DNA of 50,147 nucleotides from Candidatus Eremiobacter antarcticus (lineage in GTDB: Bacteria; Vulcanimicrobiota; Vulcanimicrobiia; Eremiobacterales; Eremiobacteraceae): contig QHBK01000015.1 in NCBI GenBank assembly GCA_003244105.1, positions 1 through 50,147 of the forward strand, read 5' to 3'. Each line of letters starts with the position of its first letter. Position 1 is the stretch's first letter. Made by a program: the position numbers and the translations under genes. The notes beneath the pieces are model-generated. The model did not search any database. It was given only the letters and a program-made list of their open reading frames with translations, and was not told where the DNA came from. Below, one piece after another: positions 32,785-39,275 of this stretch.

Positions 32785-32813
32785 ACAAAAGGGACGGCTG
32801 CTGCCGTCCCTTT
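32785..32813 (-). terminator. Terminator of the first pseudopilin operon
   Basis: An 11-bp perfect stem (AAAGGGACGGC 32788-32798, GCCGTCCCTTT 32803-32813) closes loop TGCT. Read on the minus strand it ends in TTTTGTT, a U-tract. It lies 24 bases beyond the stop of the PilX-like gene. Confidence 0.85.
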
Positions 32814-32836
32814 CCCGCGAGCCACGGTTATTTCAG

Positions 32837-34444
32837 TTAGCGGCCGAGATCGAGCCACGCGATGATGTCGTACTTGTTCGTGATCGGGAAGTACGGCGGC
32901 GGATTGGAGGCCAAACGCGCATCGTACTGATAGACGCGGCTGAACCCGCTGACCTGGCTGCCTCCGCTCGAGACCCCCATGTTGCCGTTGACGTTTTGAA
33001 TCAAACCGCCGAAGAACGTGAAGTTTCCCTGTGGAACTCCGTTCCAGTCCTGATTCTTGAACGTGCCGTCGGTACACGGGGGGCACTCGCCGTCGTAGCC
33101 CGTCATGATGCTGCCGTCGAACTCGTATCCCGTGGTCGTGCTTGAGTTCACGGTGATGTCGTTCGCCCAGATGCCAAGTTCATCGCCCGACGACGCGCTC
33201 TTGTCCAAATATTTGATGCCCGGCGCGGCGCCGCCCAGCGTTATCGTGTGGGAGTGGTCAGACACGTAGTCAGGCACGGAAATCGTGTACGCGCCATGTA
33301 TCGTGCCGGTGTTCAACGTCACGTTGCCGTCCGCGAAAATTGCTCCATTGCCGACCGAGGTGCCGGCCGCCGGCTGACCCGACAGCACGCCCGTATAGAC
33401 GTCGGAGCAACTGGCTGCGCAGCCGGTTGTCTGAACGACGGTCGTCGTGTTCGCGCTGAAATCAATGACGATCTTGTAGCTATGGTCAATGGGATTGCCC
33501 GCGCCCTTAGGCGTGACCGTGAAAACCTCGTTATTGCCAGAATACGCGCCGCACACCCCGGAGCACGGAGTAATGTTGGCGTCACCCTCGATATAGAGGC
33601 CGGTCGTAAGCGGCGCGTTCGGACCGGCGTTCGCGTCATGACCGTTGACGAAGATACCGTTGTGCGGCGTGTTGGGCAGAGTTGCCACGTGGGTGGAATC
33701 GCCATAGAAGGCCTCGCTGGCCACCTGCAAATTGCTCTGAAAGCCGGGCAACGCCATCGGATTTGAGCCGATCGTGAACGACTTCTTGCCTTTGCTCGTG
33801 ACATCGGCCCAGATCGGAGTGGCGACAGCAGTCTTGGCGACGCCCTCATACCAGGTCGGCGTCGTCACCGTCGTCACGGAACTTTTGAAGATAGGCGGCG
33901 AACTGGTCTGGTACCAAACGTTCATGGAGCCGCCATTATAGACAGGGCCGTCGAAAATCTCGCCGGTCGTATAGTAGACGTTGCCGGAGTTACCGGCGGT
34001 GAACTGCTCGAAGTACGAGTAGGGAAAGCTTTTCGCCAAGGCTTCCACGGTGCGCGTCTGGCCTGAGGAGGTCTCCGTACCGGTCGAGACGATGTCGTAG
34101 TAGACTAAACCGTTGGTCGTGGTCCACGCCTTTGTGACCGTCACGTCGTAGTGCTCAGTAGACGGAGCTGCATACGAATAGCTGATGTCCGGTGGGATCT
34201 GCTGTCCCGCCCCCGTCGCGCTTTCTTCGATGTTGAGCACCATGTTCTCGACGCCCGCATACGCGGTATTCAGCGCTTTGGCGCTGTTGCTATGCGAACC
34301 GACCGATCCAAGTTCGGCTATCATCTGCCCCATGAGCGCACCGATGAGTACGAGGAACACCATAGTCATCAGCAGCGCGGTGATCAGCGCTATGCCTCGC
34401 TCCCTGCGGGGAGAATGCCTGTGGTTGGAAATGCGTGATTTCAT
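32837..34444 (-). CDS. Large PilX/GspK-like pseudopilin, copy 1
   Basis: A 535-residue prepilin-like protein. A basic leader ends RERG|IALITALLMTMVFLVLIG: the cleavage Gly is present, but residue +5 is Thr instead of Glu, as in GspK/PilX. A long beta-rich extracellular region includes EIFDGPVYNGGSMNV and VASEAFYGDS and resembles DUF4900-type pilus proteins. It ends in YDARLASNPPPY...YDIIAWLDLGR. Paired cysteines (C-S-G-V-C, C-A-A-S-C, C-P-P-C) suggest disulfides. It is likely to cap a pilus or pseudopilus as adhesin or tip. The start overlaps the PilW-like gene by 4 bases; a terminator follows. It is a paralogue of the gene at 36083-37711. Confidence 0.78.
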   Translation of the reverse strand: MKSRISNHRHSPRRERGIALITALLMTMVFLVLIGALMGQMIAELGSVGSHSNSAKALNTAYAGVENMVLNIEESATGAGQQIPPDISYSYAAPSTEHYDVTVTKAWTTTNGLVYYDIVSTGTETSSGQTRTVEALAKSFPYSYFEQFTAGNSGNVYYTTGEIFDGPVYNGGSMNVWYQTSSPPIFKSSVTTVTTPTWYEGVAKTAVATPIWADVTSKGKKSFTIGSNPMALPGFQSNLQVASEAFYGDSTHVATLPNTPHNGIFVNGHDANAGPNAPLTTGLYIEGDANITPCSGVCGAYSGNNEVFTVTPKGAGNPIDHSYKIVIDFSANTTTVVQTTGCAASCSDVYTGVLSGQPAAGTSVGNGAIFADGNVTLNTGTIHGAYTISVPDYVSDHSHTITLGGAAPGIKYLDKSASSGDELGIWANDITVNSSTTTGYEFDGSIMTGYDGECPPCTDGTFKNQDWNGVPQGNFTFFGGLIQNVNGNMGVSSGGSQVSGFSRVYQYDARLASNPPPYFPITNKYDIIAWLDLGR

Positions 34445-35076
34445 TGCGGTGTGAACCCCATGGCGACTTGCGTGGAGAGGTCGTAGGTCCCATGCTTGCC
34501 TTTCGACGGGGTCGTCGAAAGGTCGATCTGGAACAAAATGTTTTGAGCGCTGAGCGGCGTCACGCCGAAAGCAGTGACGTTGCGGGCGAGGATGTCGGTC
34601 TTGACAACCCCGAGAGCACAGCCCGTGCTGTCAACTTTGCGCGTGATAGTGTCTGCAGCGGCGTCGTAGGCGAGCGTCACGTCGTCGTAACACGGTACGG
34701 GCGCGCCCTTCGCGTTGGTGGGTATCGGCTTTGGAGCCGCTGCCATCCCACCCTTGCCCTTGTGCACGCGCCAAAACTCAATGGTGGTGACAGTCGGCCC
34801 CGGAGGGACCGATGGAGCGGCGGGCACGATCACCATCGGATAGTCGGGCCCCGTGAAGTCCGTCTCGTTCGGCATGGCCTGTCGGAACTCGTTCGAGACC
34901 TTGGCCATTGCGATGCGTGCGTTCTGTTCGGCGGTCAAGTTCGCGTTCGTCAGGTCGTTGTGCTTGAAGACCATGGCGAACTCGACGACCGCCAGCGACA
35001 TGATGAATCCCATGACCACCATCGAGATGAGCAGCTCGATGACCGAGATGCCGTTCTGGTTCTTCGCGCGCATCAT
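34441..35076 (-). CDS. PilW/GspJ-like prepilin, copy 1
   Basis: A 211-residue type IV prepilin. The leader MMRAKNQNG is cut before ISVIELLISMVVMGFIMSLAV, with Glu at +5. The mature part has a hydrophobic N-terminal helix and a beta domain with VTTIEFWRVHKGKG and a PCYDDVTLAYDA...STGCA Cys pair. It would be inserted in the inner membrane and processed by a prepilin peptidase not in the window. Start at 35076 overlaps the stop of the PilV-like gene (ATGA). A second ATG at 35073 is possible. It overlaps the large PilX-like gene by 4 bases, so the three are translationally coupled. Confidence 0.82.
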   Translation of the reverse strand: MMRAKNQNGISVIELLISMVVMGFIMSLAVVEFAMVFKHNDLTNANLTAEQNARIAMAKVSNEFRQAMPNETDFTGPDYPMVIVPAAPSVPPGPTVTTIEFWRVHKGKGGMAAAPKPIPTNAKGAPVPCYDDVTLAYDAAADTITRKVDSTGCALGVVKTDILARNVTAFGVTPLSAQNILFQIDLSTTPSKGKHGTYDLSTQVAMGFTPQ

Positions 35077-35771
35077 TGGATCACCGTGGGTTGAGGCGTC
35101 GGCGTGGGCGCGGGCGTCGCGGTTGGAACCGGGGTAGCGGTTCCGGATGGCTTTGGCGTCGGCACCGGAGTAGGCGGCATCGATGGCTTGGGCGTCGGTG
35201 TCGGCGTGGGCGTCGGTGTCGGTGATCCCGGCGGCATCACGCCGCTCGTGTTGGGGTTCGGGTCGTTGCGGCTGAACTGATGCATGGCGAAGATCTGCCG
35301 CTTGCCGGTGCCGGCGCCCGTTTGGGCGGATATCCACACGGTAAGGTCGGCGGCGTTCGCATCCGCTTGCTGATCGGCCCGCCACATATACTGGAACTTG
35401 CCCGTCTTCGCCAGATTGCTGAAGGGTCCGGCGGCGCAGGTCGGCACGTTGTGCCAGGTCGGAGTCGTCAAGCTGTCGTTATAGGGCGGAAACGCGTTGC
35501 CGCAGGGATCCGTCAGTCCGATCGGAGCGGTGGTCCACACACCGCCAACCTGCTCGGACCAAAAGCTTGAGTCCGTGCGCATGTTGTCGATGAAGTAGTT
35601 CGCCATGGAGATGGTGACACCGCGATTTGTGGCTTGCCGTTCAGCCTGCGTCGACGCAATCATGTCGCCGGAGACGAACAGAAATGCAATCGTCAAGATG
35701 ACGGTCGCGATGAGAACTTCGATGAGCGATGTGCCTCGCTGCTGTTTGGGCTTGTGCGATGCTGTGCGCAT
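35073..35771 (-). CDS. PilV/GspI-like prepilin with Pro-rich tail, copy 1
   Basis: A 232-residue prepilin. The leader MRTASHKPKQQRG is cut before TSLIEVLIATVILTIAFLF, with Glu at +5. The globular part carries DPCGNAFPPYNDSL and WHNVPTCAAG, a conserved Cys pair with its paralogue at 38337. The last 55 residues are a Thr/Pro/Lys repeat (about 175-232), unusual for a pseudopilin. First gene of the first triad. It resembles GspI/PilV by order and size. The ATG at 35771 is near GAGAGAG. Confidence 0.82.
   Translation of the reverse strand: MRTASHKPKQQRGTSLIEVLIATVILTIAFLFVSGDMIASTQAERQATNRGVTISMANYFIDNMRTDSSFWSEQVGGVWTTAPIGLTDPCGNAFPPYNDSLTTPTWHNVPTCAAGPFSNLAKTGKFQYMWRADQQADANAADLTVWISAQTGAGTGKRQIFAMHQFSRNDPNPNTSGVMPPGSPTPTPTPTPTPKPSMPPTPVPTPKPSGTATPVPTATPAPTPTPQPTVIQ
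35185..35224 (+). repeat. GGCGTCGGTGTC-type tandem repeat inside the pilin gene
   Basis: Short tandem units (GGCGTCGGTGTC, GGCGTGGGCGTC) occur here on the plus strand, coding on the other strand for the (Thr-Pro)n tail of the PilV-like protein. Such repeats can change length by slippage, altering the tail. Confidence 0.6.
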
Positions 35772-36037
35772 TCCTGATCAACTCTCTCTTAAAGAAACTT
35801 CGGGTGGTTCGCTTACATGATACGACTGCGATGGCGGCGCGCTTCTTACGGGATTTGGACTCCGAAACGGCTTTGCCGAGCATCTGTGACGCGGCCCACG
35901 GCCCCGACGCGAAGCACGTCGCGGCGCGCGCAGGGATGGAAAGCGTCATTTGCTCATCCGGCCTATCATCCCACAAACCGTGGTATTACTATGTGACGTG
36001 CGCCATACGCGCGCGAACGCGGCTGCGACAGCGTAAG
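35772..36037. other. Leader region of the first pseudopilin operon; no gene seen
   Basis: This stretch separates the two pseudopilin triads. It holds the upstream region of the PilV-like gene, with GAGAGAG close to the start and no gene with recognisable protein features on either strand. A possible -10 TATCAT (near 35818) is weak. No riboswitch consensus was recognised; see the rejected list for c-di-GMP. Confidence 0.4.
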
Positions 36038-36063
36038 AAAAAACCGTCGCTCGGACGGTTTTT
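36038..36063. terminator. Terminator of the second pseudopilin operon
   Basis: AAAAAACCGTC pairs with GACGGTTTTT around loop GCTCG, leaving T- and A-tracts on both strands. It lies 20 bases beyond the stop of the second PilX-like gene (36083) and ends the upstream operon. Confidence 0.85.
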
Positions 36064-36082
36064 AAGAAGTTAGAAGTACGAA

Positions 36083-37711
36083 CTACGAGCCCAAGTCGTC
36101 CCACGCGATGAGATTATAGGCGCCGGTCGTCGGGTTGAACGGCGGCGGGTTAGCTTGCAGGCGCGGGTCGTAGATGATGTTGCGGCTGAAGCCGGTGTGG
36201 GTCCCGGGCGTGCCCACGATCAGGCCGAGCGCCCCACGTGAGTTCTCGATGACGCCGCCGTTGACCGTCAGTTTGCCCTGATCGCGCGTCCCGCAGGTCG
36301 CCGGCTTGCAGTAGATATTGCGGAAGTTCCCGTGTTTCCAGTTCTCGCCGGGATACCCGGCGATGATGCTCGCGTCGATCGTGATGTCGCTGGCAAGCGT
36401 GTCCACGATCACATCGTTGCCCCACAGGGCGACTTCGTCCCGGATCGGGTCCGCATATTTGAGGTTGCCGAGCACCACGATGTTGTTGTTCTGCGTCCAG
36501 CCTGCGTAGTCGGGCGTGGCGAACGTGTACGAGCCTTGCAGCGTCACGTCGGGCGTCTTTGCTTTGCCGAACTGGATGCCGCCGACCGCGAACACCGCGC
36601 CGTTGCCCAAGTTCGGGTTGCCGGGCGCCGGCGCGCCCGAAGGCACACCCGAATAGGTCTTGCTCACGCCGTTGTACGTCACTTTCGTGCTGCCCGGGCT
36701 GCCGAAGGTGATCGCGAGATCGTACGAGCCGCCCGACCAAGGACCGCTGATCGACATGTTCTCCGTATTGCCCGAACTGGAACTCGTGACCGTCGCCGTG
36801 CCGCCGGCCGCATTGATGAAGATGCCGGTCGTCACCGACGTGCCAGAATTGGAGACCGCATCCTTGGCAGGGACGTCGGACGGAGCGTCGATGTAGACGC
36901 CCGGCGCGACCGACGGAAAGCCGCTGGCGAAGGTGTTCGAGGCATCCCCTTGCCAGGCTTCGCTCGCGACGATGATGTTCGAGGATGGCTGCGGCAGTGC
37001 CAGCGGCACCGGGTTGATCGCGAATGCGTTTTGACCGCCCGCCGCGATCATGTCCCAGTCGCGCGCATCCGGCTGCGTCTTGCCCTCATCTTCGTCGTTC
37101 CAAATCGGCTCGTAACCGGTCTGCACTCCTTGCTTGAAGATCGGGCCGACGGTGTCATTGAAATCGATATGCATGGGGCCGCCTGAGTATACGGGCCCGT
37201 CGTAGACTTGGTCGGGGCGGTACCACACCGGTTTGCCGAATTGGTTCACTTCGTAGTTCGAGAAGCTGGCGTAGCGTGCGTACGGCTGAGCGCGCGCGAT
37301 CGCGCTGACGACCCGGTGCTGCTTTTCGATACCATTGTCAACGCTGCCGGTCGAGGTGATCAGGTAGTACGTCAGGCTGCCGGTGATCCATGTCCGAGCG
37401 ATGGTGGCTGTATAGCTCGTGTTGCTGGGCGCGCCGTTGGCCTCGGGGTAATCATACTCCAAGGGAGTATTCGGCGGCGGGAGATTCGCCACGGCGTTCG
37501 TCTGTATCGCCGCGACCATGCCGTGAACGCCGGCGTCCGCTGCCGTCAGCGCGCGGTTTGACACGCCATGGGCGTGAACGCTGTTCACTTCCATCGCGAG
37601 CTGCGAGACGAGGCCGCCTGCGAAGATCAGCAGCACCAGCATGAGGCCGATAACGGTGATCAGCGCGACGCCCCGCTCGGCGCCGGCGCGATCGATGCGT
37701 TCCTTTGTCAC
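36083..37711 (-). CDS. Large PilX/GspK-like pseudopilin, copy 2
   Basis: A 542-residue paralogue of the protein at 32837. The leader ends GAERG|VALITVIGLMLVLLIFAGG, again lacking Glu at +5. The extracellular part shares VYDGPVYSGGPMHI, IIVASEAWQGDA, GNGAVFAVGG and FSRNIIYDPRLQANPPPF with the other copy, and ends in YNLIAWDDLGS. A Cys pair occurs in CKPATCG. It starts with GTG at 37711, overlapping the PilW-like stop (GTGA). Longer in-frame extensions are Arg-rich artefacts from within the upstream gene. Likely tip or adhesin subunit. Confidence 0.78.
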   Translation of the reverse strand: MTKERIDRAGAERGVALITVIGLMLVLLIFAGGLVSQLAMEVNSVHAHGVSNRALTAADAGVHGMVAAIQTNAVANLPPPNTPLEYDYPEANGAPSNTSYTATIARTWITGSLTYYLITSTGSVDNGIEKQHRVVSAIARAQPYARYASFSNYEVNQFGKPVWYRPDQVYDGPVYSGGPMHIDFNDTVGPIFKQGVQTGYEPIWNDEDEGKTQPDARDWDMIAAGGQNAFAINPVPLALPQPSSNIIVASEAWQGDASNTFASGFPSVAPGVYIDAPSDVPAKDAVSNSGTSVTTGIFINAAGGTATVTSSSSGNTENMSISGPWSGGSYDLAITFGSPGSTKVTYNGVSKTYSGVPSGAPAPGNPNLGNGAVFAVGGIQFGKAKTPDVTLQGSYTFATPDYAGWTQNNNIVVLGNLKYADPIRDEVALWGNDVIVDTLASDITIDASIIAGYPGENWKHGNFRNIYCKPATCGTRDQGKLTVNGGVIENSRGALGLIVGTPGTHTGFSRNIIYDPRLQANPPPFNPTTGAYNLIAWDDLGS

Positions 37712-38340
37712 TCTGTTCCTAGACCCCCGATGTAGACGACGCTGTCCAAGGTGAAAGTGCAAGCGCCGTTGCGGCAGTGCGACGATGGCGCGGCGACGGT
37801 GATGTCCACGGAGTATCGCGTTCCGTCGCCATTGGAGGTGACGGCGAACTGTGTCACGCCTGTCCCCAAGACCGTTCGCACCGGAGCGCCGCCGCCTGCG
37901 ACCGGCCGGACCAGTTTCTCGAGCACGCCCGGAGAGAGCGGATCGATCTGTACGGTGACGATGTCGAACGGTGGGCAGGGCGCAAGGTTGTTCGGCGCGG
38001 CGCACAAGGGTATGGGAACGCCGAGGCTGCCTTGGCGTACCCGATAGAACTGAGCCACCGGGCCGGTGGAACTGACGGCCGGCTGCGTGACCGTGGGCGG
38101 AGGGCCAGACGGAAAATCGGTGAGATCCGGAAAGGCGGCGCGCATCTCATTGCTCACGCCGGTCAGCATGATGCGAGCTCCCCCTTCCGCATCTGTATTG
38201 GCTCGCGTGTGGAGCGTGTGGCTCACCACTCCGCTGAACTCGAGTCCGATGGCGGTCAGTATCAACCCGAAGATGCCCACGACGACCAGCATCTCGATGA
38301 GCGTGAAGCCGCGAGCCGGCAGCGTGCGTCGGCCCTTCAT
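37708..38340 (-). CDS. PilW/GspJ-like prepilin, copy 2
   Basis: A 210-residue prepilin. The leader MKGRRTLPARG is cut before FTLIEMLVVVGIFGLILTAI, with Glu at +5. The mature part contains VAQFYRVRQGSLGVP followed by a Cys pair (PLCAAPN...APCPP) and ends with SHCRNGACTFTLDSVVYIG. It corresponds to the protein at 34441. ATG 38340 overlaps the PilV-like stop (ATGA) by 4 bases. Confidence 0.84.
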   Translation of the reverse strand: MKGRRTLPARGFTLIEMLVVVGIFGLILTAIGLEFSGVVSHTLHTRANTDAEGGARIMLTGVSNEMRAAFPDLTDFPSGPPPTVTQPAVSSTGPVAQFYRVRQGSLGVPIPLCAAPNNLAPCPPFDIVTVQIDPLSPGVLEKLVRPVAGGGAPVRTVLGTGVTQFAVTSNGDGTRYSVDITVAAPSSHCRNGACTFTLDSVVYIGGLGTE

Positions 38341-39026
38341 TCGAACGTGCCCGATGGTTTGGGCGATGGCTTCGGCTTCTTGGTTCCCGTGGGGCTTGGG
38401 CTCGGCCGTGGTGTCGGCGAACCGGGCGGGCTCGGTGATGTGCTCGGGCACGGCTGAGTGCAGGGCGGCGGTGTAGGCGTTGGCGGCAGGATGCCGGCCG
38501 GACTTGCGGGCGTCGAGATGTTGCCGCGCGTGCTGTGCAGCTCGTAGATGTCTTGGCGTCCGCCTTCGTTGACCAACACCCAGGTCGTGAGTTCGGCTAC
38601 CCTCGGGTCAGGCGGAGAACCTTGTTGCTGAGCCTTCCATTTGAATTGGAAGGCGCTTACGCCGATCAAATCCGGGAACGCGCCTGCGTTCACGCCGTTG
38701 GGCAGACATGCTGGAGCTTGGTGCCAGCCTCCTTGAGCGGTGATAGAATCGGTGTAAGGCGGCCACGGGTTGCCGCAGGGATCGGTCGTTCCGGGGCCCG
38801 TGTTCCAGTCGCTCCAAAATATGGGGTCTTGGCGCATGACGCCCAGAAGGTAATTCGCGGCGGAGATGCTTTCGGTCCGCGTGGCCGCGACGTTCTCGGC
38901 CTGAGACGACTGTATCAGGTCGCCGGTCAGGAAGAGAAAGATCATCAACAAGAGCGTTACCGCGATCAAGATCTCGATCAAGGTCGTGCCGCGGCGTGTG
39001 GAAAGGCGAAATCGCCCGTTCATCAT
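38337..39026 (-). CDS. PilV/GspI-like prepilin with Pro-rich tail, copy 2
   Basis: A 229-residue prepilin. The leader ends STRRG|TTLIEILIAVTLLLMIFLF, with Glu at +5. The globular part has DPCGNPWPPYTDSI and WHQAPACLPNG, matching DPCGNAFPPYNDSL and WHNVPTCAAG in copy 1. The C-terminal 55 residues are Pro/Ser/Thr/Lys-rich (about 175-229) with two added Cys (PPPCTQPCP). ATG 39026 is set by GGGAG 5 bases upstream; 39023 is also possible. Confidence 0.84.
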   Translation of the reverse strand: MMNGRFRLSTRRGTTLIEILIAVTLLLMIFLFLTGDLIQSSQAENVAATRTESISAANYLLGVMRQDPIFWSDWNTGPGTTDPCGNPWPPYTDSITAQGGWHQAPACLPNGVNAGAFPDLIGVSAFQFKWKAQQQGSPPDPRVAELTTWVLVNEGGRQDIYELHSTRGNISTPASPAGILPPTPTPPPCTQPCPSTSPSPPGSPTPRPSPSPTGTKKPKPSPKPSGTFE

Positions 39027-39069: not shown

Positions 39070-39275
39070 GGGCTGACGCCCGCGTGAGCCCAGTCACATC
39101 AGCTATTGGACCCTTCCCGCGCGTCTTTGTCACAGGTCATATGACAGGGACGCGAAGGCCGCGAAGCCCTACACCATTGCAGCCTCGCATGTCGAACGCG
39201 AACGTCGAAGCACTATGATAAAGGATTCGGCGAACGGCGGCATCGGCCGCACGCACCGCTTTGCCTGGGGGCCAT

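Follow-up and report, generated by a model that had tools for sequence, protein, structure and literature searches.

The closest described counterparts of the locus presented here belong to type IV pili and to type II secretion systems. In Thermus thermophilus, the GspK-like pilin ComZ contains an inserted solenoid and binds its GspI-like neighbor PilA2; it was argued to sit at the pilus tip and was proposed as the tip DNA receptor of the Thermus competence pili (PMC6561018). Three minor-pilin/PilY1 clusters, each containing four minor pilins and a separate PilY1 adhesin, are believed to provide Myxococcus xanthus with different pilus tips; translational coupling is found in these clusters, their copies are less than 36% identical, and they are not described as tandem (PMC13190605). 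A cultivated Eremiobacterota species (Vulcanimicrobium) moves by type IV pili (PMC9758169). Here we analyzed a tandem pair of three-gene minor-pilin operons in a soil bacterium of this barely cultivated phylum, which most likely build the tip of retractable type IV pili.

The window, a stretch of 50,147 nucleotides, corresponds to contig C15 in a genome of 2.64 Mb. Two minus-strand operons, 39026-36083 and 35771-32837, both carry genes ordered V, W, X. The first encodes V1 (38337..39026), a PilV/GspI-like minor pilin of 229 aa with a Pro-rich C-terminal tail, assigned from the ORF, family models and the V1/V2 alignment; W1 (37708..38340), a GspJ-like minor pilin of 210 aa, assigned via the predicted W2 fold; and X1 (36083..37711), a putative ComZ-like large minor pilin of 542 aa with a GTG start and Thr at +5, its fold assigned by homology to X2. 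The second encodes V2 (35073..35771), a PilV/GspI-like minor pilin of 232 aa, also with a Pro-rich tail, and, both assigned from predicted folds, the GspJ-like W2 (34441..35076; 211 aa) and the ComZ-like X2 (32837..34444; 535 aa). All V/W and W/X junctions are 4-base overlaps (ATGA or GTGA). Behind each operon lies an intrinsic terminator on the minus strand, a hairpin with a T-rich tail, at 36039..36063 (-11.5 kcal/mol, z -3.0) and 32787..32814 (-24.6 kcal/mol, z -4.9); a consensus terminator scan picked up neither, apparently because the T-run pairs with an A-run. The tandem is flanked by oligopeptide-binding-protein-like genes on one side and a class III aminotransferase/DUF309 pair on the other, and searches of the genome with PF00437 and PF00263 placed no ATPase or secretin gene on this contig. 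The preliminary description had claimed two adjacent operons of equal order and overlaps, each with its own terminator, and core machinery genes outside the window; all of this was confirmed.

At position +5, mature V and W have Glu (G/TTLIE, G/TSLIE, G/FTLIE, G/ISVIE) and X has Thr (G/VALIT, G/IALIT; leader pattern G/xALxT), with Glu in none of the 19 family X proteins. V of each trio, the partner pilin adjoining X, matched the PilV model (best E 9e-8, that of V2) or the XpsI/GspI model, in every case below the curated cut-off. Pfam found N_methyl alone in V and W, a weak PilX_N in 5/19 X proteins, and DUF4900 below threshold. The GspK model matched the N-terminus of 15/19 X proteins, also below its curated cut-off, and the match was confined to about the first 65 of 307 positions, the remainder of X being solenoid. 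The Pro/Thr/Ser-rich tails of V1 and V2 (window 38337-38500 and 35073-35260) are unusual for a minor pilin; they are shared by some relatives and absent in others (L066, L067).

Structure prediction gave a W2 model (pLDDT 73) whose 17 best Foldseek matches in the PDB were all GspJ (XcpW/EpsJ) or GspJ-containing complexes (E 0.004-0.1), making W GspJ-like by predicted fold. In the X2 model (pLDDT 83.8, pTM 0.78), a helix (18-75) is followed by a pilin sheet to ~141, a beta-solenoid at ~142-506 and a closing strand at 521-532, so that in this one predicted model ~360 residues of short solenoid strands are inserted in the pilin sheet. The sole PDB match with E below 1e-3 was ComZ (6qvi; E 3.9e-7, probability 1.00), the next having E 0.9. 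Global superposition on ComZ was poor (TM 0.25, rmsd 14), so the match rests on local structure and topology; different bending of domains or of the solenoid could account for the low TM. PDB sequence searches with single X sequences and with a 19-sequence profile gave nothing real, and a 32-sequence X profile ranked ComZ first among PDB sequences (E 0.003), with a colinear alignment in the pilin domain. As modeled, X is ComZ-like, a pilin plus an inserted beta-solenoid. The GspI-J-K-type assignment made earlier therefore holds, through the PilV and XpsI models for V, the predicted W2 fold and the X N-terminus; the label of X as a PilX/GspK-like protein without Glu+5 stands for its N-terminus and the missing Glu, the remainder being a predicted ComZ-like beta-solenoid.

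Like Thermus pilA1-pilA2-pilA3-comZ, the locus encodes a large K-like minor pilin with a predicted beta-solenoid beside a GspI-like minor pilin. It differs in that X is almost unrecognizable as ComZ in sequence (the profile E of 0.003) and strongly acidic, and in that the genes form a clean unit of three, one of them GspJ-like, which is tandemly duplicated. The GspI-GspJ-GspK tip of type II secretion shares the I-J-K gene order and roles, the GspJ fold of W and an X without Glu+5, whereas GspK has no beta-solenoid and the trios are linked to type IV pilus genes. As in M. xanthus, one genome holds several paralogous, translationally coupled minor-pilin sets, but here X itself seems to incorporate the adhesive part, and the trios have no adjoining PilY1-like gene. 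This precedent for several tips, together with pilus motility in a cultivated Eremiobacterota species, favors two alternative solenoid-capped tips, and we consider it likely that the locus encodes two paralogous tip complexes, of I-J-K and ComZ type, serving as alternative tips of a type IV pilus.

The core pilus locus of the genome lies on C19 (pilC, pilins, pilD, a Crp-family gene, pilM, pilN, pilO and a secretin) and pilB on C3; several ATPases are present. A search with PF05567 (PilY1) matched 0/14 genomes of the order, control genomes being equally silent. The link between trios and pili comes from gene neighborhoods and from predicted operators. In the relatives G003, G004 and G005, a single trio at the equivalent site adjoins a PilT-type ATPase, and an Omnitrophota record, whose translations were inspected, has PilC-like, V- and W-like genes, an X relative, and then PilM-, PilN- and PilO-like genes.

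The genome was scanned for TGTGA-N6-TCACA with at most one mismatch, the reversed pattern serving as control. It has 32 such sites versus 10 for the control, among them sites upstream of V1, pilB, pilT-pilC and a gene with a PilZ-like product. The candidate CRP-type operator of V1 (TGTGACTGGGCTCACG; 39083..39098, minus strand) lies 57-72 bp upstream of the gene. The second operon has weak CRP-like sites only, such as TATGGCGCACGTCACA upstream of V2 (35992..36007, minus strand), which matches at 8/10 positions and is unconvincing alone (region p ~0.04); the two operons may therefore differ in control. Upstream sites at 9 or 10 of 10 positions were found for 11/20 trio starts. As the trio motif had been noticed before testing, the pilB upstream regions served as a test on another gene: a site was present in 8/8 relatives tested (seven at 9 of 10 positions, one at 8 of 10), ~92-118 bp from the start in six, the start codon being unreliably placed in the other two. 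Binomial estimates for these sites are very small, but they treat relatives as independent and take the rate from one genome. No conserved CRP-like site was seen at pilT of the relatives, though the window genome has one. In L109 (G000:C7:74654), a CRP-like site is separated by 41 bp from a gene that begins like one for a PilZ-domain protein.

The Crp-family gene between pilD and pilM (L040:11550-12302) is kept in four genera, its product being 77-80% identical in the three others. It has an RETVxR recognition helix, as in E. coli CRP, and this protein is a likely candidate reader of the sites upstream of pilB and the trios. Through the predicted operator common to trios and pilB, and the presence of a Crp-family gene in the core locus, the trios are tied to the regulon of the pilus.

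A more specific version of the preferred explanation, compatible with it, would make both X proteins ComZ-like DNA receptors at competence tips, the copies being redundant or tuned to different DNA. ComZ is indeed the only significant fold match, ComEC is present in 13/14 genomes of the order, including the one studied here, and cAMP-CRP is reported to control competence in other bacteria (PMC4595672). However, X1 and X2 are very acidic past helix 1 (pI 4.6 and 4.5), PilT beside a trio fits motility equally, and in the cultivated relative Vulcanimicrobium the pili serve phototactic movement (PMC9758169). We therefore hold a DNA-receptor role for both copies to be possible but rather doubtful.

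The trios could instead cap a type II secretion pseudopilus and not a surface pilus, as the W fold matches GspJ, the X N-terminus matches the GspK model, and elsewhere in the genome C2 carries a second secretin and C13 a GspK-like gene. This is improbable, as X bears a predicted ComZ-like solenoid, and ComZ, although itself GspK-like, acts in a competence pilus (PMC6561018). No gsp operon surrounds the trios; in relatives they adjoin genes for PilT-type ATPases or, in Omnitrophota, PilC and PilM-N-O-like genes, and trios and pilB have a predicted operator in common. The secretion-filament tips that the preliminary description had kept as an option are disfavored on these grounds, and a tip of type IV pili remains our preferred reading.

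Copies 1 and 2 are 47% (V), 32% (W) and 40% (X) identical in end-to-end alignments, and X1 matches X2 over its whole length (BLASTP E 7e-77). After removal of the leader and the first 40 mature residues, and for V also of the Pro-rich tail, paralogue scores exceeded those of shuffles with z of 37 (V), 20 (W) and 67 (X). Homology thus extends past the shared prepilin leader, which rules out copies unrelated outside it. We also considered divergence concentrated in the solenoid, the pattern that would most clearly have pointed to ligand specialization. This was unsupported: X1/X2 divergence is spread along the protein, the solenoids being no more diverged than the pilin parts, and sequence alone is therefore silent on differing ligands.

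The age of the duplication was examined in 14 genomes of the order, all of one family and representing nine genera. The V tree, the W tree and the X tree all set a copy-1 clade (window, G001, G010) apart from a copy-2 clade (window, G001, G009, G010), with support of 100/100 for X, 100/99 for W, and 96/93 (copy 1) and 90/98 (copy 2) for V; the duplication therefore predates the split of at least four genera. Copy-1 orthologues occur in three genera, with an X fragment in a fourth, and copy-2 orthologues in four. At the matching site, the tandem is whole in G010 and interrupted by contig ends in G001 and G009, and terminators of differing sequence lie between X1 and V2 in G010 and G009 as well. 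Alignments, shuffle scores and trees agree with the tandem duplication and divergence proposed at the outset, and the trio pair recurs in related genomes, where it had been suggested to look.

Doublings resembling that of the window arose separately at C6 and in G006. A second double V-W-X trio (L041:6811-13755; G000:C6, ~230.8-237.8 kb) lies directly behind a PilZ-MshEN-PilB ATPase gene, bringing the trios in this genome to up to four. These are not recent copies of the C15 trios, as their X proteins (392 and 441 aa) have no clear similarity to the window X beyond the N-terminal helix 1. G006 has a separate tandem trio pair, with a solitary extra V between the two trios (L056:9284-10042) that suggests repeated duplication. 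In a wider phylum sample, X-like matches were found in 37/149 genomes, often within a V-W-X unit where inspected. Tandem or clustered X-like genes were seen in other families of this sample (L081-L083; G145:C34, G146:C162, G024:C22), and X relatives by sequence also occur in Armatimonadetes and Omnitrophota records. The scan of genome contigs used a 6-sequence alignment, the 19-sequence alignment being too diverse.

That one of the copies is decaying or has fallen out of use, with no separate function, is very improbable, even if X1 orthologues are less identical to one another within their clade than X2 orthologues, as both copies are intact with equal overlaps and +5 residues, their orthologues persist across genera, and comparable doublings arose separately at C6 and in G006.

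Under the favored explanation of alternative pilus tips, pilus assembly would begin in the inner membrane with the I-like V, J-like W and K-like X of one trio. Its missing Glu+5 and bulky predicted beta-solenoid would place X uppermost, the position proposed for ComZ in Thermus. Machinery encoded elsewhere (the pilus core on C19, pilB on C3) would then insert the major pilin beneath this complex, and the solenoid would be displayed at the tip, where it may bind a surface, a polymer or DNA. The copies would have been kept as separate transcription units after the old tandem duplication, so that the cell could make pili with either tip, and it can probably fit two different tips. Both pilB and the trios are probably under joint control of a CRP-type regulator encoded in the pilus locus. 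As a more tentative generalization, ComZ-type solenoid caps might be the general pilus-tip adhesins of these bacteria and dispense with a separate PilY1, two or more of them being swapped under a dedicated CRP-type regulator encoded in the pilus locus.

Among solved structures, only ComZ resembles this solenoid-capped pilin, and going by the predicted model the same architecture is now seen in Eremiobacterota, in a tandem pair long kept apart. If both tips are used, the pair would provide a natural experiment on how a single pilus machine picks its tip, and the predicted CRP-type operator common with pilB offers a concrete starting point for learning when pili are made in these largely uncultivated bacteria.
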